A stretch of 20,202 bases of DNA from a virus. A program made the translations under genes and the position numbers. The DNA is taken from positions 1-20,202 of the IMG/VR virus record IMGVR_UViG_3300029267_005478; one strand, 5' to 3'. The notes under the pieces were generated by a model. It was not told the origin of the DNA. It saw only the letters and a list, made by a program, of their open reading frames with translations, and did no database searches. Shown here one piece after another: positions 6,804-20,202 of this stretch. Numbering within the stretch: the stretch's first letter is position 1; each line of letters begins with the position of its first letter.

Positions 6804-8447
6804 CTACGGTGGGGTACTTACCTGTACCGACGGATTCAACGGTATCTGAAGTGGACCAACCACCTGAACTACATCGCCTACTCTAACATGGATGGGGACC
6901 GCCTTATCAACTTTCCGCATCAAACGACCAAGCGGGTCTTCTTGAAGCGCGCCGAGTTCAGCCATAACTTCCGCAGGCACAATCTCTATTCGAAGCCAAC
7001 TGGAACGACAATAATCACAACTCATCAGCAAATGACATTCATAGTCAATACTTACGGTTGCCCCAAAAACGGGAGATTCCCCGGCAAAAATCTCGAATTC
7101 CCATGTTCCAGCCACCACCTCAACAGGCATCGTCTCCAAATAAAGTTGTTCCCCGGGTATCGTCGGAAAATTGGCATACCAATATCCAATTGACGCCACC
7201 GGCCACAAATCCACCCCAGGCCCCACGCGGATCCTCCATCGTCCACTACCAAGGTCCGTGCTGCTGATAATAGGCAAACTTTCCATCACATAACCGATGG
7301 CGTCTTCCACCGTAGTCCCATCTGGAGGAGGTGGATCGGGCGGCATTACCGGTCCGCTTGTCCAATCAGGAGTCTCGCTACAGGCGTAATCGAGAGGAAT
7401 AACATCGGCCGCGATTTCATCAAAACGCGGAATGAGAGGATCCACTGTCGTATAGTATTTACCGCTTCCCAGTGGAATCTCGTACACGTCGCTTGCCGAT
7501 AACCATGACGGAATCGACCCCAGACGCCACAGACCATACGCAACAATCCGATATCCGTGAATCTTTCCAATAATCTCGTAACCACGTTGTGCGCCTTTGC
7601 GCGTCAGCCAATGATCAGCATCGCGTACAGAAGCGCGCTGAAAACTCTCGGGTTCGTGTTGATCTACGTCCACACCCGTCTCAAGCCCCAGATATGGCAA
7701 CAGCGCAGGTGGCCGTAATACCGCTGGCCCCGCTGACACCGTCATCACCGTTCCGAGTACGGAAGCTACGTCTTCCCCTTCCCACGGTTCTTCCAACGTA
7801 ATGGTAAAATCATCTACTACCGTAGCCACTTTACCTACATATTCACTGCCTGCAGAAGGTGCGAGATATTGACCAGCAACCACTTCTGCCAAAAACAGCG
7901 TTCCTGAGCCCGTAACGGTCGCTGAACCCGCCGTAAATGTCAGAAGTCCCGTAAGCTCCGTTCCTTCACTAAAAGCCGTTACAGGCAACTCTGCGGTGCC
8001 TTTCAGCTCCAGCATTGGCCCGGCGCTCCACAGCTTATGCACCGAGTTAACTGTAAACTCGCGACCTGCGTCGTCCTCCAGAATCCAGCCTATCGAAGTG
8101 TCTTCCAGGGGATTGAAAGGATCATCGGGATCCGTCTTCTCCACCAGCACTTCAATAGTTCTGCCGCCTGCCGTCGAGTACGCTATCAACAGATTGACAT
8201 TGAGATGCCCCTGATACTGAGTTCTGACCAAATCTGGATCACGTAATTCGCCAAAATCCCTAGCAAACCTGGCCAACTCTGTAAAAGACGGCCGGATGCT
8301 ATCAATAAAAGTCTCCAAACGCCCATCGGCTTGTTCTGCATCGAGACGCCGGTCTATCGCTGGTAAGTCGCGCCAAAGGACATGCTTTGACCAAGGATAT
8401 TCCCCAAAAGCCCCTTCTCCAAACAACCAATCGCCAAACCCTGGCAT
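6804..8447 (-). CDS. Baseplate tail protein, P2 gpI-like
   Basis: The product has 547 residues from ATG 8447, which follows AGGAGTAGGG. The N-terminal part (FGDWLFGEGAFGEYPW, then a helix at about residues 30-75 with ETFIDSIRPSFTELARFARD) and the later LTRKGAQRGYEIIGKIHGYR (about 281-300) match the general pattern of tail protein I and its relatives, which sit at the baseplate edge next to J and help hold fibres. Between them (about 165-225) is an inserted beta module, LTFTAGSATVTGSGTLFLAE, related to one in the 239-residue neighbour. The C-terminal third is beta-rich and contains CDYC. The protein is much longer than P2 gpI, so the extra domains are elaborations. The assignment is moderate. 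Confidence 0.6.
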   Translation of the reverse strand: MPGFGDWLFGEGAFGEYPWSKHVLWRDLPAIDRRLDAEQADGRLETFIDSIRPSFTELARFARDFGELRDPDLVRTQYQGHLNVNLLIAYSTAGGRTIEVLVEKTDPDDPFNPLEDTSIGWILEDDAGREFTVNSVHKLWSAGPMLELKGTAELPVTAFSEGTELTGLLTFTAGSATVTGSGTLFLAEVVAGQYLAPSAGSEYVGKVATVVDDFTITLEEPWEGEDVASVLGTVMTVSAGPAVLRPPALLPYLGLETGVDVDQHEPESFQRASVRDADHWLTRKGAQRGYEIIGKIHGYRIVAYGLWRLGSIPSWLSASDVYEIPLGSGKYYTTVDPLIPRFDEIAADVIPLDYACSETPDWTSGPVMPPDPPPPDGTTVEDAIGYVMESLPIISSTDLGSGRWRIRVGPGVDLWPVASIGYWYANFPTIPGEQLYLETMPVEVVAGTWEFEIFAGESPVFGATVSIDYECHLLMSCDYCRSSWLRIEIVPAEVMAELGALQEDPLGRLMRKVDKAVPIHVRVGDVVQVVGPLQIPLNPSVQVSTPP

Positions 8448-8515: not shown

Positions 8516-9706
8516 TCAAGTTTGCAACAACTGCGCCCAAGAATCGGCGATGCGATTCCAGTCACAGTATTCCTTAACCCAATCATACGCATTCTTTGAA
8601 CGCCGCCTTGCCTCTTTAGGGTTGTTGTACACACTCAATATTTGACCCACTAAACTGTCAACATCCGTGAGAGGCCGCAACTGAGAATTATCATATTCCG
8701 GTAGAACCACGAAAGATGTGCATTCCGCCAACCAGCCCCTCTCCTGGTCTTTACCAAGAATCTCTTCACAAGATGTATGCCTGGGCATCACAACCGGAAC
8801 TTTACAAGCTAAAGATTCTGTGATGCTCAGCCCCCAACCCTCACCCATCGTAGTCGATACAACCACATCCGAAGCGCAATAGATATCTCGCATCGTACTC
8901 TTATCGACTCCGTTTGGACCAACAGACTCCGGATAAAAAATATTATCTTGCTGCTTCTTTGGCACATGGCGAACCACAAAACGAAGTATGTTCTCGCTGA
9001 TCTGCTCGTCCGGGTCGAAATGCAAATACAGCTTGGCAGCAGGGATGCTTTTTTGAACCTCCAGCCAAGCGATAATTGTCCTGGGCAAATCCTTCCTGGG
9101 CTGGTTCCGATTTACATTGGTAATAAGAAAATCATCGGGTCCTACCCCAAACAACTCTCGTCGTATCTTTTTTCTCCTATTCGCCGTAGTAGGCTTAAAA
9201 ACCTCTGTGTCAACACCGTGATAGAGAACATGCACGTCTCGATCAGAATATTTTTTTGCTTCTTCACGGCCATACTCAGTATACGCGACAGCTACATCAG
9301 GAGTGTCGATAGCATTAGTAACCCATAATGGGTCCAGCGGCCCATCCACAGGAAAGTACAGTATATACTTGAACTCTTTTTTCGTGCGTACTCTCTTCAA
9401 CGCATCATTCGGTGGCACCAAGTTGAAAGTATCCTGAAGCACGAACAGAACATCGTACTCTCCGGCATCCAGCATATCTATCAGTTTACCTCTGCCCAAC
9501 GGATCACCACCGGACTCAGCAGGATAGACAGGAATATCCTTGAAACGGTAGTACGGGCTATCCGGGTGATTATACGGCTCGCCTCTATAGTTGATACCGA
9601 AAACAGTAAAATCAAATCTACCCTGAAGCCTGGATATTATTTCTTCGGCTACATTCCCAAAGCCGGTGGGCACAAGAAAGTCACTGTACCAGAGTACCTT
9701 GAGCAC
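8516..9706 (-). CDS. GT-B glycosyltransferase, GT4-like
   Basis: The product has 396 residues from a GTG start, two bases after the stop of the methyltransferase gene. The N-terminal Rossmann domain begins VLWYSDFLVPTGFGNVAEEI, with the Gly-rich loop (TGFGN) that binds the acceptor side. The C-terminal nucleotide-sugar domain begins near ITNVNRNQPRKDL (about residue 195). It carries an EX7E motif, Glu289 to Glu297 (MGEGWGLSITE), typical of retaining GT4-type enzymes, followed by VPVVMPRHTSCEEIL. The enzyme would transfer a sugar from an activated donor; donor and acceptor are not determinable from sequence. It has no signal peptide or membrane segment, so it acts in the host cytoplasm. It is complete and about the usual length for the family. 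Confidence 0.9.
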   Translation of the reverse strand: MLKVLWYSDFLVPTGFGNVAEEIISRLQGRFDFTVFGINYRGEPYNHPDSPYYRFKDIPVYPAESGGDPLGRGKLIDMLDAGEYDVLFVLQDTFNLVPPNDALKRVRTKKEFKYILYFPVDGPLDPLWVTNAIDTPDVAVAYTEYGREEAKKYSDRDVHVLYHGVDTEVFKPTTANRRKKIRRELFGVGPDDFLITNVNRNQPRKDLPRTIIAWLEVQKSIPAAKLYLHFDPDEQISENILRFVVRHVPKKQQDNIFYPESVGPNGVDKSTMRDIYCASDVVVSTTMGEGWGLSITESLACKVPVVMPRHTSCEEILGKDQERGWLAECTSFVVLPEYDNSQLRPLTDVDSLVGQILSVYNNPKEARRRSKNAYDWVKEYCDWNRIADSWAQLLQT

Positions 9707-9708
9707 AG

Positions 9709-10914
9709 TTATTCTCTCTTGGCAAATACAGCTAATTCAGTAAACTTCCCTTTCACAGCATGTCCCCGCAAAAAATAACAACGATCAGGGTCAGTCCTAA
9801 AAGGCAGATAGTTCCATCCAGATGAACTCACTTCTTGCGCCTCAACGGTTTCCAAAGTAGGAGGCCATGTAGCTCTCAACTTTGACACCAACGATAACTT
9901 CACAAGAGTGCCAGGCACAACAGAGATATTGCACTTAAACTTAGCTCCTCCTTTACCAAAAAATTGAGGAACCGTATGAAACCATGTGTTCTCCGCGTCA
10001 GGATGCAATATGGGCTGCAAATACTGCCATTGCGACCACATTCTTTTTACCAAAGCACTGACGCACTTATCCACAAAGGCTCGCGACTCTTTCCATCCTA
10101 CAATTATCGGCCTTGTACGCACTACTCCCGAAACCTTTCGTAGCACCAACAAACACAGTGTTGTAACACTGCCCTCACGCAAACGATTTATACATGTAGG
10201 TCCATAGGTCTTCCCCGCAAAAGAAATTCCGTACTCGTCTGGGTATAACGGAAGTGGATGATTTAGTGTGGCATTGGCTAAGCTACAATCAAAAACCGGC
10301 TCTGGGACAAATGGTGACTTGGCAACCAAATCCAGCAAATGCTCCGGAGTAAAAAAGTGAAGAGTCGGAGCGGCAAAAGTTTTGTCTTCAAAAGCGATAG
10401 CTGTCGTGACAGCATATACGCCGCCTTCTTTTAATACCCGATGGACCTCATTGAAATGCTGCACAAAATCATCATCGAACCCAATATGCTCTATCGCGCA
10501 AGTGCTCCAGGCAAAATCGAAGCTATTATCCTCAAACTCTATTTTTCGCATGTCCATGCACTTGGCTTCAACTCTATCTTCTGGAAACGAAATAGGAGCC
10601 TTATCCAATACTAGTTGCCTTGGATCATTCGTTCGCGAAAATTTCCACTTGGTATCTGGTAAAAACAGGTCAGTGGCAACTATCTTTTTAGCTTCCCTAG
10701 CAAAAATATAAATGAGTCTTTCGGTGCTGGTCCCAAACCCTATACCGCACCCCTTTCCATCCAATTTTCCATAGTCATGAAGCGCCTTATATATCTTGGC
10801 GTATTCCCATTGTTTTGGATGAAGAGATACGTTAAATCCGAGTACATCTCTCAAAATTGCGGATAGATCAGGGTCACTCCAATCAGAAATATCACATAAC
10901 TTCTGCCTATACAT
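9709..10914 (-). CDS. Class I SAM-dependent methyltransferase (Methyltransf_11 type)
   Basis: The product has 401 residues and its ATG overlaps the upstream stop by one base (TAATG). The Rossmann core is clear: motif I GCGIGFGTSTERL at about residues 55-67, an acidic residue ending the second strand (IVATDLF, about 78-84), a possible acidic motif II (AKCMDMRKIEF), motif III/IV SFDFAWSTCAIEHIGFDDDF at about 131-150, and RVLKEGGVYAVTT at about 159-171. These bind S-adenosylmethionine and form the family signature. The C-terminal 100 or so residues (about 300-401) are beta-rich and not part of the core; they may bind the substrate. Small-molecule, sugar and lipid methylation are all possible. 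The adjoining glycosyltransferase makes a glycan substrate plausible. Confidence 0.85.
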   Translation of the reverse strand: MYRQKLCDISDWSDPDLSAILRDVLGFNVSLHPKQWEYAKIYKALHDYGKLDGKGCGIGFGTSTERLIYIFAREAKKIVATDLFLPDTKWKFSRTNDPRQLVLDKAPISFPEDRVEAKCMDMRKIEFEDNSFDFAWSTCAIEHIGFDDDFVQHFNEVHRVLKEGGVYAVTTAIAFEDKTFAAPTLHFFTPEHLLDLVAKSPFVPEPVFDCSLANATLNHPLPLYPDEYGISFAGKTYGPTCINRLREGSVTTLCLLVLRKVSGVVRTRPIIVGWKESRAFVDKCVSALVKRMWSQWQYLQPILHPDAENTWFHTVPQFFGKGGAKFKCNISVVPGTLVKLSLVSKLRATWPPTLETVEAQEVSSSGWNYLPFRTDPDRCYFLRGHAVKGKFTELAVFAKRE

Positions 10915-11915
10915 TATACATTCCTATAATGCTTCGCATTCTGGTTTTCCAAATTGACAGGAGCATCCTGATCAGGCAATATCAAATCCCCTGTCTTATA
11001 CTCCAAACCGATATGTGGCAACCAGTGGCGCAGAGACTCTTCACACAAACCCTCATAAGTAATAATTTCCAAATTGGCGGTACTGTTAGCAATCTCAGTA
11101 ATATTCGCAGCGAGAATCCACGACCGAGCTTCTAACCCTCGCACAAAGTCCGGAACTCTATGCTGTTGCGCCACAGCAGAACGCATGTTTGCTATCGGCT
11201 CCCGAACCACTACTATAGCTATCACACGAGAGTACCCCTTGTTCTTTAATGCTGTTATCCATCCAGACAGATCTTGATGTGCAACGTGAACATAAGGCAC
11301 ATTGTCTGCCGGGGGTATCTTGTCCATAGGGGCCTGGTTCTTACCTGCTGTTCCCTTGCACCCGCTTCGCTTTAAAATAGCTGCCATAAGCCTGTTGCCG
11401 CTGGAAATGGGGCCGCAAACGAGATAGGCAGTATTACAGTCTATCGTCAATCCATGGTGCTTACGTTCTTTTGGAAGCACCCATCGTTCATCAAATGGAT
11501 GCCACCAGACGGGGTCTGGACACAATTTAGAATACACAGGACGCAAGGGGGTTTTCTGCAAGAGCGTCGTCCGCATAGCCATGCGCTCACAAAAGAAACT
11601 ACCCAAAAGGGGACCACCTACAATATTCAGCAAATGGGTCGTCATCAGCTTTTGAGCTACTGGCCAAAACCTCTCAAAATCATGGTACTCGCCAGCTATG
11701 TAACGAATACGCTTTATCGTTTCCTTGGAAGCACACCCCAAGAAGCTGCACTCGGCCCCCTCACTGTCAGTCTTGAGATAGTCCAGGTCTCCTCCCTCTG
11801 GCAACATATCCTGCACCACCTCGTCTAAAGTTGAGCACGGCACCTCAATCTCCGGAAGCTCCTTATGGCTCCCCTCTGTGTTAATACCTGGAGGAGCCAT
11901 CAATGAGCCGCCCAC
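10914..11915 (-). CDS. FkbM-like methyltransferase (C-terminal part) fused to sulfotransferase-like domain
   Basis: This open frame encodes 333 residues counted from an in-frame GTG. The true gene probably starts at 12208 and is interrupted by a frameshift near 12116 (see the separate entry). Residues about 20-115 carry the FkbM methyltransferase signature, with VPCSTLDEVV then DLDYLKTDSEGAECSFL. FkbM enzymes O-methylate sugars or related groups. Residues about 160-333 form a second domain. It begins TAYLVCGPISSGNRLMAAIL (residues 162-180), a P-loop-like phosphosulfate-binding motif, and later has VVVREPIANMRSAV (residues 235-248), like the 3'-phosphate-binding element of sulfotransferases. 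The usual Lys/Arg of the first motif is replaced here (SSGNRL), so activity is uncertain. A kinase-type P-loop fold is the alternative. The join of methyl and sulfo transfer domains is unusual. Confidence 0.7.
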   Translation of the reverse strand: MGGSLMAPPGINTEGSHKELPEIEVPCSTLDEVVQDMLPEGGDLDYLKTDSEGAECSFLGCASKETIKRIRYIAGEYHDFERFWPVAQKLMTTHLLNIVGGPLLGSFFCERMAMRTTLLQKTPLRPVYSKLCPDPVWWHPFDERWVLPKERKHHGLTIDCNTAYLVCGPISSGNRLMAAILKRSGCKGTAGKNQAPMDKIPPADNVPYVHVAHQDLSGWITALKNKGYSRVIAIVVVREPIANMRSAVAQQHRVPDFVRGLEARSWILAANITEIANSTANLEIITYEGLCEESLRHWLPHIGLEYKTGDLILPDQDAPVNLENQNAKHYRNV

Positions 11916-12208
11916 ATATCCCGGCCCGGCCTCCGGCAGCCCAAGGTAAACATTAAGTCTCCGGGGTTCTGTGTACGGCTTTCTGCCAAGATCATCCTCG
12001 AATAAATGCTCAGCGGTAACCGCCCCAAACCTAACATCCAGCCGTCCGCCATATGCCTGTGCCTTCTTTGTGGAAGTCTCTACATGCTCTGGGATAATCT
12101 CATATGACCGAATACCCCGACTTCCAAAATGGTTTTTATAGGGGGTGCACCAAAAGCATCAACAAACCGCTTAACAGTACGATACTTATAACAAGCGTTA
12201 CCTTCCAT
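11916..12208 (-). pseudogene. 5' part of the FkbM-like gene, separated by a frameshift
   Basis: An ATG at 12208, four bases after GGGGGAGG on the coding strand, begins MEGNACYKYRTVKRFVDAFG and reaches IKTILEVG, the expected first strand and SAM-binding motif of an FkbM enzyme. Just after this the frame runs out (stop at 12080-12082). The continuation, RSYEIIPEHVE then a segment with KKAQAYGGRLDVRF, lies in the frame of the downstream coding region. A single -1 shift (or one extra base) in the GGGG run near 12114-12118 restores about 430 residues. This may be a real inactivating mutation, a sequencing or assembly error, or, less likely, programmed frameshifting. Confidence 0.6.
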
Positions 12209-12216
12209 GTCCTCCC
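12209..12216 (-). promoter_or_regulatory. Strong ribosome binding site for the FkbM-like gene
   Basis: The coding strand carries GGGAGG just before ATG 12208. A strong site here, followed by a plausible protein start, supports translation beginning at 12208 rather than at the internal GTG at 11915, and so supports the frameshift interpretation. Confidence 0.5.
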
Positions 12217-12227
12217 CCAGTTATGGG

Positions 12228-12654
12228 TTATGAGTAGTTGGCACCAAGGAGAGTCAAATAGACATCCGCACCATCAACAAAGTATTCGATAATGTCAATA
12301 GCATTTACCGAATTGGTAATACTGTGGGAAGAACCTCCGGGCCACTTTACAGACCCAGAAATCGCAGAATAACTCAAAGCCCCTACTGGCCCTGACGAGG
12401 CTTGTTTAACCTTTATCAACCCACGCTGGACGTGCTCCAGCCCCGCATTAGCAAAAAGAAGCGTCTCGGATCCCCCAGATGCAAGCTGAAGCGCAACGTC
12501 AGTAGTATTAACCAAGGGAAACGTAAAAATGGAGCCTTGCGCGGTGAGCGTAGAAAACGCACGATAAGGAGAAGAGCGAGCCAAGTCATCCTGAACGCTG
12601 CCGCGAGGCACCTCACCAGAAGCTATCCGTGAAGCTGATAATATCGAAAATCGT

Positions 12655-12662
<8 letters not shown>
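12228..12662 (-). CDS. Small beta-rich virion/fibre-associated protein
   Basis: The product has 144 residues from ATG 12662; a GTG at 12668 would add two residues. GGAGG lies 9 bases before the ATG but only 3 before the GTG, so the ATG is preferred. The start region overlaps the end of the collagen-like fibre gene. The C-terminal half ([19 protein letters not shown], then a strand with [20 protein letters not shown]) follows a pattern common at the ends of phage fibre or structural proteins: a W-P-G turn, a D-I core strand and a final V-Y-L...N-Y strand. It probably forms a small beta domain that caps or decorates the preceding fibre. It could be a separate trimerising cap protein. No enzymatic motif is visible. 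Confidence 0.65.
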
Positions 12663-16191
<3,529 letters not shown>

Positions 16192-16205
16192 AAACTAACT
16201 CCTTC

Positions 16206-16937
16206 TCACGGTATCAAAGCCAACTCGCCATCGATAACGAGGCTTCCATCAATGGTGATACCGCCCGACACAATCATCTGTTGGTTGGTGGGTATAGTCA
16301 CTTGTTCGCCCACTGGAACAGTCTTAAAACTGAAGTTACGGGGAATATTGATTTCAATTTCATTGGCAACCGGCATGGTTGCCTCCACGCCTTCCCCAAC
16401 AAAATCCATCAGAGACGCTGATGCAGTCAGCGTTACCCCTTCGTCCTGGACCTCCAGGTTGCTGCCGCCGCCGCCGGAACCAGAAAACAAATCCTCCGCG
16501 TCGATAATGGTCCCGTTCTTGATCCAGAATCCATTGCGGAAGATGAAGTTCGTCCCGATGCGGATACCCAAGATATACGAGTCATCAGTGTTTTCGGCGA
16601 TGTTGGCCACCGCTGCGGCCGCCGTCACGTTCTGACCCGGATGCCGCGTAACATCGAACTTAATAATCTGCCCGTCATTGGGTACGAGCGTGGCGGCCGT
16701 AACCCTGTTGTAATATCCCGTAGAGGGCGACAGAAAAACAAAGTCCTCAGACCACGTTAATCCAGCCCCCACATTCCACGTCAACTGACCACCGCCGCCA
16801 AGAATAATGTTGCGGTCTTCTCGTGCCGCAAACCCTGACGCATCAAGCGCCCGGATAAAATCTACGAACGTGTCCCAAAACGGCTCCTCAAATTGCTCTG
16901 GAAAAGGCCAGAGCATACGTGGAGAATTATCAGCCAC
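16206..16937 (-). CDS. Fibre or baseplate protein, unknown family
   Basis: The product has 243 residues from a GTG start that overlaps the stop of the HEHVH protein by eight bases. The N-terminal part (MLWPFPEQFEEPFWDTFVDF, then ALDASGFAAREDRNIILGGG) looks like a helical baseplate-attachment segment leading into beta strands with the QLTWNVGAGLTWSEDFVFL pattern, as in fibre-associated structural proteins. A Gly-rich linker at about residues 152-160 (SGSGGGGS) joins a C-terminal beta-rich region (about 160-243) with repeated GGITIDGSLVIDGE strands. It precedes the collagen-like fibre by 14 bases. A role as the anchor or proximal part of that fibre is likely but not proven. Confidence 0.65.
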   Translation of the reverse strand: MADNSPRMLWPFPEQFEEPFWDTFVDFIRALDASGFAAREDRNIILGGGGQLTWNVGAGLTWSEDFVFLSPSTGYYNRVTAATLVPNDGQIIKFDVTRHPGQNVTAAAAVANIAENTDDSYILGIRIGTNFIFRNGFWIKNGTIIDAEDLFSGSGGGGSNLEVQDEGVTLTASASLMDFVGEGVEATMPVANEIEINIPRNFSFKTVPVGEQVTIPTNQQMIVSGGITIDGSLVIDGELALIP

Positions 16938-17427
16938 CTTTCTTCATCTCCTTCTCCAGTTCCTCTTCTGCCAACCAATAACAGGCAGTCGACTGCCCCA
17001 CGGCCGCCACCAAGCACGCCACAACAAAAGCTCGCAACATCGAAGCTTCATACTGCTCCACATGAACATGCTCATGCACTTGCACCGGATTCCATGGCTT
17101 TCCTTGGTCCGCGCGCTTGTTGGGACCGTAAAAGATCGCGTGTCCAAGAGTGGTTCCACCCCACGGATAAGTGGAACCGTCGGAGAACTTCTGCAAATAC
17201 CATCCTTTGGGCCACTTACCCTCTGACACCGGCCAAGACCCTTGCTTCAAATTACAAGTAAGAGACGGGGCGCCAGGGGTTCCGGGTTTGGCAATGGAAT
17301 TGTCACGAGGATTCTCCCACTCCAGACGCTCGCCCCATAGACCACGGATCAGAACAATTATGCCCCACATCAACAAATCCCAAGGCAAACAGACGAAATA
17401 CAGCAATATATGGCGCTTGGTCTTCAT
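16930..17427 (-). CDS. Membrane protein with HEHVH metallopeptidase-type motif
   Basis: The product has 165 residues from an ATG overlapping the upstream stop as ATGA. A hydrophobic segment near the N-terminus (about 8-30, ILLYFVCLPWDLLMWGIIVL) and another near residues 131-150 (LRAFVVACLVAAVGQSTACY) suggest two membrane spans. Between them lie GTTLGHAIFYG (about 91-101) and VHEHVHVEQYEA (about 117-128). The latter contains HExxH (His118-Glu119-His122), the zinc-binding and catalytic motif of many metallopeptidases. A similar TLGH...HEHVHxxQYE arrangement occurs in small bacterial membrane proteins of unknown function. Activity is unproven. Its place between the J-like protein and the fibres is unusual. 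It could process a virion protein, act on the host envelope, or be a moron-type insertion. Confidence 0.7.
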   Translation of the reverse strand: MKTKRHILLYFVCLPWDLLMWGIIVLIRGLWGERLEWENPRDNSIAKPGTPGAPSLTCNLKQGSWPVSEGKWPKGWYLQKFSDGSTYPWGGTTLGHAIFYGPNKRADQGKPWNPVQVHEHVHVEQYEASMLRAFVVACLVAAVGQSTACYWLAEEELEKEMKKGG

Positions 17428-19541
17428 GCCGCCGCATCCTCCGCCGTGATAGTAACAAGCCCCTTCGTAATCACATACTTTTCGGTAATGATTAGGTTTC
17501 CGTCGGCATCCAAGAAATCGGTCACAACAACGGGAGGATCACTGTCATCGTACGACCCCAGAATATTGACCACCGAGTACTTGACGCCGTCGATGCCCCC
17601 CACTCCCGTTTGAGGATTGGGCGAAACCACTGTATCGAGATTAGCTACTCTGAGAGACGCCCCAAATTCGCGTACCCGCAAAAGGTCGTCGACTGCCTTT
17701 TGAGCGTTCGACACAACTGTCTGCTTCACAAATCCTTCTAACACACCGATAGTGATGGTTATAACTGCTGGCACCAAATACGCGCCGCCAGACACCACTT
17801 CCACCACCTGGGTTACTTCTTTGCGCGCTTCCAGATATGTCCTCAACGAGTTGATCAAAGCTACAGAAGGCTCTTGAAGGAAACCGTCCACGTCCCTGGT
17901 GAGAATCGGTACCTGAACCAAATTAGCTTTACAGTCAGCCGATAAGAATCCATCCACATGATCGTAGATATTGTCCAGTTCCGTCTCAACCGCCGTTTCA
18001 AAACCGGTGGATACTCGTGTATTGATCACCACAACCTGAGCCGCAATGCTCGATAACAACGGTGGCATCAACGCTAACTCGGTGTCAGCTGTAGATTGTA
18101 ATGCTTCAACAGCTTCCCGGGCTGTATCCGTCAATCCCAATTCAGTCAAAATATCGTCAGCGTCACTATCAATATTGCTGAAATAGGTGTTAATCGAAGC
18201 CACTTCTCCAGCATTTAATTTGGCCGATCCCGCTGGACCATAAGCGTCTACCTGCGCAATACCGTTCACAGTGTCATTTTTGATGGACTGTGCTTTACCC
18301 CGAGAAGTAGCAGTAGAAGTGTTTATATCACTCAACTCTGCAACCATATCGTCAACAGCTGTATCCACATTATCTCTGGCGCTATCAATAGCCAGCCGAT
18401 CCGACTCGATTTGAGCTGTTGCAACCTGCACATCGGAAGCCAGGGGATCGACAATATTGCGAATGTTGTTCAGATATACTTGAAGCTGAATATCGTCTTC
18501 CGCGCCATGAGCTGTGAATGCCTGCGCAACAGCCACTGCGCCCGCCAAGGCGTCCGTGTAAGCCGCAGAAAGCCCCTCATAGTCCGAACGTACCACCGCG
18601 ACATCCCGGGCCGGATAGAACTGCTGAGCATTCACCTTGGCCTTATCCAAATCTTCTCGATCGGCACCAGCACTGGTTGGAAGAGGATTATTGATGGTCA
18701 GCGCTATGATCGCACCGCCAACCACCAAAGGCGTCACTACATCAACAATGGTACCGCTTTGAACGCTTCCAGCCTTACCAGAATTAGCGACATATTCCGC
18801 CCGAATTTCATCTCCTGATGTGGGAATATTACCTGCTACTCCATTACCAAAACGCAAAGTGGGCGGTTCATCGTTATAGCGCACCTCGAACTGATCGGTG
18901 GAGTCATATGTGATGACCTCCGATTCCGTCCACGGAAACCCTCCCACCAAACACACAAATCCGTTACCTGCAATAAAGCGATCCTGTTGAGGATTCAGAC
19001 GAAACGTCTGATTTTTACTTCCATCTGATGTAAATATCTCGACACGCGTCTCACCTTCTCTCACCCCCACTGTGCGCGCCGGGCTCGCTGGACCTTCTCC
19101 CGCCGGAAAAGTCACTTCCTCCACTGATTCAAATACCAAATCGTTCGGTCCCTGAAACTTGAACCCAAGCGATATCGTAACATCGAACGCCTGCACTTCC
19201 GCCAGATTTACATCCAAGTCTACTGTTGCAGACACAGATGCCGACATCTTGTATCCACGTTGGCGCGCGAGCCTGGAAACAGCTTTTCTTGTCCGCGCCG
19301 TCTCCAAATACGACTCAGTAGCTTGTCTGTCGATATAGAAACTCAGGGTTTCACAGGCCCAACTCACGATATCAATGAGCATCTGACCCGTACCCGAAGT
19401 CACAAAGTCATTAAACTCGGTTACGAATAGAGCTTGGATACGAGCGATAATGTCATCAATGAACGTAAAAAAATCTTTGCTCGTATAACGCGCACGATTA
19501 ATATCGCTAGCTGGAGATTCGATAGCAATTGGATCGACCAT
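17424..19541 (-). CDS. Baseplate J-like protein
   Basis: The product has 705 residues from ATG 19541, after GGAGGAG. It matches the baseplate J family (T4 gp6, P2 gpJ and relatives), which form the inner ring of the baseplate wedge. Recognisable parts are the N-terminal helix GTGQMLIDIVSWACETLSFY (about 50-70), then RQATESYLETARTRKAVSRL (72-91), ARQRGYKMS, a beta-domain with FGNGVAGNIPTSGDEIRAEY (about 231-250), and ADREDLDKAKVN (292-303), leading into PARDVAVVRSDYEGL. The final beta domain resumes with ANLVQVPILTRDVDGF (about 539-554). Between about 360 and 538 is a long helical insertion not seen in the short family members. The next gene upstream is the gp25-like wedge protein, its usual partner. 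Confidence 0.9.
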   Translation of the reverse strand: MVDPIAIESPASDINRARYTSKDFFTFIDDIIARIQALFVTEFNDFVTSGTGQMLIDIVSWACETLSFYIDRQATESYLETARTRKAVSRLARQRGYKMSASVSATVDLDVNLAEVQAFDVTISLGFKFQGPNDLVFESVEEVTFPAGEGPASPARTVGVREGETRVEIFTSDGSKNQTFRLNPQQDRFIAGNGFVCLVGGFPWTESEVITYDSTDQFEVRYNDEPPTLRFGNGVAGNIPTSGDEIRAEYVANSGKAGSVQSGTIVDVVTPLVVGGAIIALTINNPLPTSAGADREDLDKAKVNAQQFYPARDVAVVRSDYEGLSAAYTDALAGAVAVAQAFTAHGAEDDIQLQVYLNNIRNIVDPLASDVQVATAQIESDRLAIDSARDNVDTAVDDMVAELSDINTSTATSRGKAQSIKNDTVNGIAQVDAYGPAGSAKLNAGEVASINTYFSNIDSDADDILTELGLTDTAREAVEALQSTADTELALMPPLLSSIAAQVVVINTRVSTGFETAVETELDNIYDHVDGFLSADCKANLVQVPILTRDVDGFLQEPSVALINSLRTYLEARKEVTQVVEVVSGGAYLVPAVITITIGVLEGFVKQTVVSNAQKAVDDLLRVREFGASLRVANLDTVVSPNPQTGVGGIDGVKYSVVNILGSYDDSDPPVVVTDFLDADGNLIITEKYVITKGLVTITAEDAAA

Positions 19542-19558
19542 TTAAAAACTCCTCCTAC

Positions 19559-19945
19559 TTACGCTGCCCTCGCGGTCGAAACGGGCACCGCCAACTGTCT
19601 AACTTCACCTCGCACTCGATACACTATTACCACTATCACTGTGTAACCCTTTACAGCCTTGTTCTCCTTCTGAAGCGTCAATACCCTCAATACCTGTATA
19701 CGGGGCTCTCCGGCTGCTAGAGCGCGCCGCACCTCGTAATTGACACTGGCCTGCAACATGGGACCAATATTCTCAAACACGAAATCCATGGTGTCGCTGC
19801 CCTGATTTGGGCGCATAACCCGCTCCCCGCGCCGGGTCTGGACAATGCGCCGGATATTGTCCTCGATCACATCGTCGTCTTCATTGGACGCAGGAAAGCT
19901 CGTAGATCCCTTGTTGAACGGGAACGCTATGTTGAGAATCGTCAT
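19559..19945 (-). CDS. Baseplate wedge protein, gpW/gp25-like
   Basis: The product has 128 residues. It shows the GPW/gp25 fold pattern: an N-terminal FPF segment, the helix EDNIRRIVQTRRGERVMRP (about residues 28-46) and then a helix ending in RRALAAGEPRIQVLRV (about 73-88). The T..GERVM.P and EPRI elements are the family hallmarks. In T4 and P2 such proteins form part of the wedge core, contact the J-like protein and help trigger sheath contraction. Length is typical for the family. It ends 17 bases before the J-like gene starts, the usual order in contractile phages. This is the clearest sign that the window encodes a contractile tail. Confidence 0.92.
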   Translation of the reverse strand: MTILNIAFPFNKGSTSFPASNEDDDVIEDNIRRIVQTRRGERVMRPNQGSDTMDFVFENIGPMLQASVNYEVRRALAAGEPRIQVLRVLTLQKENKAVKGYTVIVVIVYRVRGEVRQLAVPVSTARAA

Positions 19946-19993
19946 CTAGCCCATCCTAACCCAACAGGCTTTTTGACCCCTAATTCTCTGCCA

Positions 19994-20202
19994 TCATGTA
20001 ACGGGCGCGATTACAGGGGGATTGGGTGGAATCGTATAGGTCACCAGCACTGTCTTGGTGGCGATATCCAACTGAGCCGCAATGCTCTCAGCCGCCGCCT
20101 GCTCTGGCTGGGGCGCTGACAAAACCGCTGTAAGTCCCGCAATCAACGCTGGTTTTCCCGGAAAAGCCGTTACAGCTCCCGCACCACCAGGTGGAGTAAA
20201 AA
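19994..20202 (-). CDS. C-terminal end of an unknown gene (partial)
   Basis: A reading frame entering from the right edge runs for 68 residues to a TGA at 19994-19996. It begins FTPPGGAGAVTAFPGKPALI and continues with an Ala/Gln-rich helix (EQAAAESIAAQLDIATKTV), then ends VTYTIPPNPPVIAPVT. The start lies outside the window. It is the last gene before the gp25-like protein, so a virion or baseplate role is likely, but the family is not recognised from this fragment. Confidence 0.6.
   Translation of the reverse strand, partial: FTPPGGAGAVTAFPGKPALIAGLTAVLSAPQPEQAAAESIAAQLDIATKTVLVTYTIPPNPPVIAPVT

Follow-up and report, generated by a model that had tools for sequence, protein, structure and literature searches.

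Three adjoining minus-strand genes, which encode a glycosyltransferase (GT), a methyltransferase (MT) and an FkbM-type MT with a sulfotransferase-like domain, sit amid the tail genes of a phage at positions 8516–12208 of the window (the whole 20,202-nt stretch analyzed, IMG/VR record IMGVR_UViG_3300029267_005478). Homologs of the GT and FkbM genes recur beside the same fiber tip in another phage, whose baseplate is unrelated, and the best reading of these sequence comparisons is that the enzyme genes follow the fiber tip, not the collagen-like shaft, between unrelated phages. Because the cassette travels with the tip, it probably customizes either the virus's own fiber or the surface that the fiber binds. 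We hold with middling confidence that the genes form a mobile fiber-tip and glycan-modification module, and that its enzymes, which are soluble, probably add a methylated, and perhaps sulfated, sugar to the fiber of the phage itself.

A glycan-modification cassette in the tail operon

The first-pass annotation had described a glycan-modification cassette within the tail module, and domain matches for the GT, MT and FkbM products bear this out, as does the operon-like spacing of the genes: the FkbM and MT genes overlap, the gap between the MT and GT genes is 2 nt, and an AGGAG-like ribosome site precedes most genes. All features given below are on the minus strand. Downstream of the cassette lies a tail protein with weak similarity to P2 gpI (6804..8447; PF09684, 0.0083, below the cut-off; phrog_9922 minor tail protein, 3e-8). 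A baseplate J/gp6-like wedge protein (17424..19541; phrog_219, 1.3e-27) is encoded upstream in the same operon, and a gp25-like baseplate wedge protein is found at 19559..19945 (PF04965, 1.8e-14). In a scan of the window, promoter-like sites were fewer than expected by chance (3 versus 10.9 in shuffled sequences) and terminator-like sites numbered 17 (versus 11.4 ± 3.9), so the scan provides no evidence for internal transcription boundaries.

The 396-aa product of 8516..9706 is predicted to be a GT4-like glycosyltransferase of the GT-B fold. It matches PF00534 above the cut-off (E = 2.7e-10; 40.5 bits versus 26.4) and phrog_2170 (E = 6.4e-52), and its nearest solved structure, over the full length, is chlorovirus B736L (PDB 3OY2; E = 3.3e-41 with a profile and 2.8e-10 with the single sequence). 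Alignments, including that with B736L, show that the donor-site residues are kept (TGFG near the N-terminus and EGWGLSxxE near the C-terminus). The neighboring gene (9709..10914) encodes a 401-aa class I SAM methyltransferase (PF08241, E = 1.3e-12) with a further, unassigned C-terminal domain; for this MT, tblastn retrieved no relative among cultured phages. Hydropathy analysis detected no membrane segment in the cassette proteins of the window or of the related locus L010 described below (none above a mean of about 1.7).

The third gene (10914..12208) encodes an FkbM methyltransferase (PF05050, E = 2.2e-08) fused to a sulfotransferase-fold domain (FkbM-ST). The families named in the first-pass annotation for this gene stand, but the gene is not one open frame in the window: it is split between a start at ATG 12208 and the remainder at 12116–10914, and about 50 nt covering SAM motif I are missing at 12115, so that the motif does not lie in one intact frame. 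As assembled, the gene would be non-functional. The contig L002 carries an extra 52 nt at 12115, where the FkbM N-terminus is intact and SAM motif I is present. Over the 8.2 kb that they share, L002 and the window are 100 per cent identical save for four pure indels; those other than the one at 12115 measure 84–129 nt and run in both directions. Because there is not a single SNP in 8.2 kb, the four indels look more like assembly or library artifacts than alleles. We therefore consider it quite improbable that the frameshift is a true allele of a cassette decaying in the phage population, a reading compatible with any function of the cassette and prompted by the frameshift itself, given both the intact FkbM region of L002 and the SNP-free pattern of the indels. 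The PF05050 match remains above the cut-off of 22.7 bits in the window fragment (34.8 bits) as well as in the L010 homolog described below (43.2 bits). No relative of the fused protein was found in bacterial genomes or in cultured phages.

The C-terminal domain of this protein (10914..11435) had no match in Pfam, PHROG or NCBIfam. A structure prediction for the whole FkbM-ST protein was uninformative (pLDDT 37), and the domain was modeled alone with AlphaFold2 (pLDDT 83; pTM 0.82). The best PDB match of this model in Foldseek is 4gox, a solved sulfotransferase domain (probability 0.99; E = 8e-3; TMq 0.56), and other top-ranking structures include Stf0 and tyrosylprotein sulfotransferases; a kinase P-loop fold, which scores lower, is the less likely alternative. 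By inspection of three sequences, a PSB-like SGNRL loop and a 3'-PB-like REPxxxxRS motif are kept. Stand-alone homologs of the domain occur in L217 and L218, with PF09037 at only 0.23 in L217. Judged by fold and motifs, the domain is probably a sulfotransferase, presumably using PAPS, and the methyl- and sulfotransferase make-up proposed from the first inspection is plausible.

The collagen-like fiber and its tip

The main fiber gene next to the cassette (12655..15751) encodes an N-terminal domain, repeated 11-residue segments, a collagen-like Gly-X-Thr shaft (13009..14193; PF01391, 1.7e-46) and a conserved C-terminal tip domain (12658..13035). A short collagen-containing protein lies upstream (15757..16191). 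The two form a single 1178-aa open reading frame in the window and separate genes of 1034 and 175 aa in L002; the fusion arises because 100 nt are absent at 15757. The shaft contains 105 G-x-T-G repeats, of which 54 are GPT, rather than the approximately 130 Gly-X-Thr triplets counted previously. Such repetition is far beyond chance (TG occurs 114 times, and none of 500 shuffles exceeded 46). Overlapping the end of the fiber gene is the gene of a 146-aa tail-fiber-like protein (12228..12668), which is conserved with the module. In the annotated phage collection searched, neither the tip domain nor the short protein had a relative, and no solved structural relative of the tip domain was found.

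The cassette recurs with the fiber tip

Searches of viral_contigs with single GT or FkbM-ST sequences returned almost no matches, and alignment queries were required. A 416-kb phage record (locus L010) carries the module in its tail operon, with a tip 68 per cent identical over 122 aa, the short tail protein (57 per cent over 145 aa to L010 3903–4331, a homolog that matches the phrog_9017 tail fiber protein at 1.5e-6), the FkbM-ST protein (49 per cent) and the GT (63 per cent). The L010 FkbM-ST homolog is full-length and intact, with SAM motif I present (PF05050, 6.2e-11), and the L010 cassette additionally encodes a protein of the rhamnosyl O-methyltransferase/CmcI family (PF04989, 2e-40) and a sugar epimerase. 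The baseplate J and tail-I proteins of the window have no detectable homolog in the 416-kb record, in a search that detects the tip at 70 per cent. Since the module is common to phages with unrelated baseplates, the fiber tip and the enzymes appear to have moved together.

A tip-domain HMM located the domain in seven contexts. In five of them (the window, L010, L228, L233 and L232), a gene for a GT4, FkbM, Sulfotransfer_3 or epimerase protein lies no more than 5 kb away: L228 has pyruvyl transferase, MT and epimerase genes, in L233 a sulfotransferase (PF13469, 1.5e-17) abuts three tip fibers, and L232 has FkbM. The two others, at 111 kb of the 416-kb record and in L229, have no such gene within that distance. 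With the window left out, the proportion is 4/6; among GPT-collagen phage contigs, genes of these kinds (GT4, FkbM, sulfotransferase, epimerase) lie that close in only 2/50 (Fisher P-value of about 6e-4, from a post hoc comparison with few and partly weak tip hits). Anywhere on the GPT-collagen contigs, GT4 was found in 6 of the 50 (4 over the cut-off) and FkbM in 2.

These surveys bear on the earlier suggestion that the threonines of the GPT shaft are the glycan target, as in BclA of Bacillus or Clostridioides, which we now regard as improbable. In the window, the GPT shaft does adjoin the cassette, and there is a precedent in SgtA, which is encoded beside bclA3 and glycosylates collagen Thr in vitro (PMC7157674); moreover, in 2 of the 50 GPT-collagen phages a GT4 gene, of another subfamily, lies no more than 5 kb from the fiber. 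Across relatives, however, the cassette does not track the GPT shaft. L010 keeps the tip, short protein, FkbM-ST and GT beside a non-collagen shaft with 0 GPT, most GPT fiber contexts are without such genes, any collagen occurs in just 7 of 50 records with a relative of the window GT, and the co-occurrence search proposed in the first-pass annotation thus went against a link to the shaft. Tetrasphaera phage TJE1 comes close to the case named there as contrary, a cassette without a Thr-rich fiber: its orf11–orf14 (HQ225832) cluster an epimerase, an FkbM-type MT and a GT 37 per cent identical to that of the window in a genome without collagen, although this cluster adjoins terminase genes, outside the tail module. 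The parallel with BclA/BclA3 and SgtA lies in the layout, a GPT-repeat protein encoded near a GT; here, the cassette also accompanies a non-collagen shaft.

Proposed role of the module and alternatives

We infer a scheme in which the cassette would be expressed late, together with the tip and the short tail protein, as one transferable module. In the cytoplasm, the soluble GT4-like enzyme would move a sugar from a nucleotide sugar onto the new fiber, presumably onto its tip, companion protein or shaft. The two MTs may then O-methylate this sugar and the FkbM-fused domain may sulfate it, perhaps in that order, and the resulting capped virion glycan could alter receptor binding, stability or recognition. 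Several observations count against this scheme: relatives of the window GT elsewhere in phages usually adjoin exonuclease, WhiB, epimerase, other GT, or terminase and capsid genes, not fibers; two of the seven tip contexts are without a nearby gene of these classes; and the FkbM gene is broken in this contig.

Alternatively, the cassette may alter host-surface glycans during infection, in superinfection exclusion or in release of progeny from debris, and be matched to the receptor of the tip. We consider this a serious competitor, though on the unlikely side. Co-inheritance of a receptor-binding tip with receptor-altering enzymes would yield the same linkage, GTs in the tail-fiber hypervariable region of Pelagimyophage have been read in this way (PMC7029224), and the MT families and the L010 epimerase resemble O-antigen tailoring genes. 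Against it, neither the window nor the L010 cassette has a match to the membrane-embedded GT or flippase families of Gtr-type serotype-converting cassettes, and an operon among structural genes, which are normally expressed late, would leave less time for surface remodeling. A role of the GT in glycosylating phage DNA with hypermodified bases is highly improbable. DNA glycosyltransferases show distant GT-B similarity to B736L (PMC6024577), and relatives of the window GT elsewhere in phages are often neighbors of exonuclease genes. The cassette, however, lies in a tail operon with sugar methyl- and sulfotransferases, and the two large tip-bearing records (those of L010 and L228, the genomes covered) encode no protein of the thymidylate-synthase family, to which a dCMP or dUMP hydroxymethylase would belong.

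If modification of the phage's own fiber is the correct reading, receptor-binding fibers of some phages would not be finished by sequence alone and would be tailored by swappable enzymes, among them the FkbM-ST protein with its probable sulfotransferase domain, with consequences for predicting host range from fiber sequences. The phage would then also encode the means to sulfate its own virion; a literature search for a phage combining FkbM, glycosyltransferase and sulfotransferase returned no paper. Doubtful, in our view, is the wider proposition that phages swap the fiber tip with a glycan-finishing module that places methylated and sulfated sugars on their own receptor-binding fiber, virion sulfation being a general means of tuning binding. 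The tip domain provides a handle for locating further such modules.

Comparison with known systems

As in the window, GTs are interspersed with tail-fiber genes in the hypervariable regions of Pelagimyophage, which are large myophages, but there the sets are rich in GT8 and are interpreted as modifying O-antigen, and neither FkbM nor a sulfotransferase is mentioned (PMC7029224). Chlorovirus PBCV-1 builds a capsid glycan and methylates it, with fused GT and methyltransferase domains, a likeness to the fused transferase domains of the window; its glycan machinery includes A064R and the GT4 protein B736L/A546L, whose acceptor is not established (PMC9614988). PBCV-1 is a virus of eukaryotic algae whose target is the N-glycan of the capsid, and no sulfotransferase fusion is mentioned in the part of that report consulted. 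Mycobacteriophages (Che8 gp110, Corndog gp38 and Myrna) encode GTs that glycosylate proteins of their capsid and tail tube (Freeman 2023, as cited in PMC12363180 and PMC12619734). The action of phage GTs on structural proteins of the virion corresponds to the role proposed here; the known targets there are the capsid and tail tube, whereas the window genes are tied to a fiber tip and accompanied by FkbM and a sulfotransferase-like domain.

Gene order and integrity of the cassette

In the 20,202-base virus record, the long genes with family matches are all on the minus strand, and the tail genes run from gp25 through a J/gp6-like baseplate protein, fibre genes, the enzyme cassette, a P2-gpI-like tail protein (a weak match) and another fibre to a tube-like protein. 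The minus-strand cassette encodes a glycosyltransferase (GT; 8516–9706; PF00534, phrog_2170), a methyltransferase (MT; 9709–10914; PF08241) and an FkbM methyltransferase with a C-terminal extension (10914–12208; PF05050). These matches and the tight spacing bear out the first-pass annotation, which had described three adjacent enzyme genes among fibre genes in one operon. Genes in the window are a few bases apart or overlap, most follow an AGGAG-like ribosome site, and their order suggests that the tail genes form a late-expressed operon. Between the baseplate and fibre genes, positions 16930–17427 encode a small protein that resembles a membrane-anchored metallopeptidase: its N-terminus is hydrophobic and it has a His-rich VHEHVHVEQYEA motif.

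The FkbM gene matches PF05050 but is split over two frames, with the ATG at 12208 in a different frame from the match. Over window positions 11972–20202, a second contig (L002/L007; IMGVR_UViG_3300029258_005387) differs only by four pure indels and is otherwise 100 per cent identical. It alone has 52 nt at 12115, 100 nt at 15757 and 129 nt at 16968, and the window alone has 84 nt (16741–16824). In the second contig, the FkbM N-terminus, including SAM motif I, is intact as far as the contig end, and the window's 1178-aa fibre ORF is two genes (175 and 1034 aa). Because there is no SNP over 8.2 kb and the indels run in both directions, an assembly or library artefact is likelier than a real difference; indels of 52–129 nt from such a source would affect how ORFs are called in contigs of this kind.

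Association with the fibre tip

The collagen-like shaft of the window fibre, whose threonines were the suspected glycan acceptor, has 105 Gly-X-Thr triplets (54 of them GPT) rather than the approximately 130 first counted, far more than shuffled sequence. Ahead of the shaft, repeated 11-residue segments at 14300–15100 with a weak PSII_BNR-like match suggest a beta-propeller head.

The expected co-occurrence of GPT fibres with GT/FkbM cassettes in relatives did not emerge. Among 50 contigs picked by a GPT-repeat DNA pattern, genes for GT4 (six contigs, four above cut-off), FkbM (two) and epimerase (three) were found anywhere, and Sulfotransfer_3 in none; by coordinates, any of these four families lay within 5 kb of the pattern in 2/50 and within 7 kb in 4/50. 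Conversely, 7 of 50 records with GT relatives have collagen and 11 have FkbM, and Tetrasphaera phage TJE1 carries GT, FkbM and epimerase genes and no collagen, close to the arrangement that the annotation had named as counter-evidence. Elsewhere, a 167-kb contig (L219, 4421–13506; G024) has, flanked by two GxT-collagen fibre genes, a 2OG-Fe(II) oxygenase gene (PF13640) and a GT4 gene from a different subfamily, and another (L220; G043) has GT4 and four PF13640 genes 7–11 kb past a GxT fibre gene; taken together, these genes suggest a phage set for collagen hydroxylation and glycosylation.

By contrast with the GPT shaft, the fibre's conserved C-terminal tip appears, post hoc, to be what the cassette tracks. 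An HMM built from alignment A6 found seven tip contexts. In five, a GT4, FkbM, Sulfotransfer_3 or epimerase gene is no more than 5 kb away: these are the window, L010 (a segment of a 416,539-base phage record), L228 (a 398-kb record; pyruvyl transferase, MT and epimerase), L232 (FkbM) and L233, where three tip fibres with weak tip matches abut a Sulfotransfer_3 gene (E = 1.5e-17). The other two, L229 and a second tip fibre at 111 kb in the 416-kb record, have none of the four families within that distance. The difference from the GPT set (Fisher test, P = 1e-4; 6e-4 with the window left out; 0.0025 with 7 kb for the GPT set) is a post hoc result from few contexts that are not wholly independent, as two share one record. 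L229 also encodes a glycosyltransferase-A-like protein (RIDADDYY; 17604–18335) approximately 7 kb downstream of its tip-domain tail protein, excluded from the adjacency count.

L010, reached through GT homology, has a tail operon with an 890-aa fibre, the short tail-fibre-like protein, a radical SAM protein, FkbM with the sulfotransferase-like domain, an unassigned protein, a CmcI/rhamnosyl O-methyltransferase-family protein, a second MT, a sugar epimerase and GT. Identity to the window is 68 per cent over 122 aa at the fibre C-terminus, 57 per cent for the short protein, 49 per cent for the FkbM fusion and 63 per cent for GT. Pfam detects no collagen in its fibre shaft, which is devoid of GPT triplets but is nonetheless Gly-rich with 10 per cent Thr. 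Since these components are shared, while a search of the 416,539-base record readily picks up the tip but nothing homologous to the baseplate J or tail-I proteins of the window, sequence comparison indicates that tip, short protein and enzymes moved as one unit between phages of differing baseplates.

The sulfotransferase-like domain

The FkbM C-terminal domain (10914–11435) has no match in Pfam, NCBIfam or PHROG, and none in PDB by sequence. Homologues in L010 (45 per cent identity) and, as a stand-alone 189-aa protein, elsewhere in that record (L217/L218) show it to be an independent domain. In a structural comparison, an AlphaFold2 model of the window domain from three-sequence input (pLDDT 83, pTM 0.82) comes closest to 4gox, an olefin synthase sulfotransferase (probability 0.99, E = 8e-3). 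Stf0 and human TPSTs likewise rank near the top; kinase P-loop folds score lower. An SGNRL loop and a REPxxxxRS motif are kept in all three aligned sequences. The fold and motifs make sulfotransferase activity probable.

Possible substrates

None of the cassette proteins has a membrane segment. The closest relative of GT with a solved structure is chlorovirus B736L, a GDP-mannose-binding GT4 protein whose acceptor is not established (PMC9614988). On the simplest reading, GT would transfer a sugar onto newly made fibre in the cytoplasm, and that sugar would then be methylated and probably sulfated. Modification of the host surface, which we consider less likely but a serious alternative, would also explain co-inheritance of the cassette with a receptor-binding tip. 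Glycosylation of DNA by GT is unlikely because the large records of L010 and L228 lack thymidylate-synthase-family hydroxymethylases, the one hypermodification route that this comparison covers.

Other genes in the 416,539-base record (G001; L010/L212–L218) include two that resemble S-adenosylmethionine decarboxylase, together with ketosynthase, acyl-carrier and phosphopantetheinyl-transferase-like genes. A giant collagen ORF in this record extends to both ends of its contig, and a lipoprotein gene of Myxococcota style adjoins the cassette.
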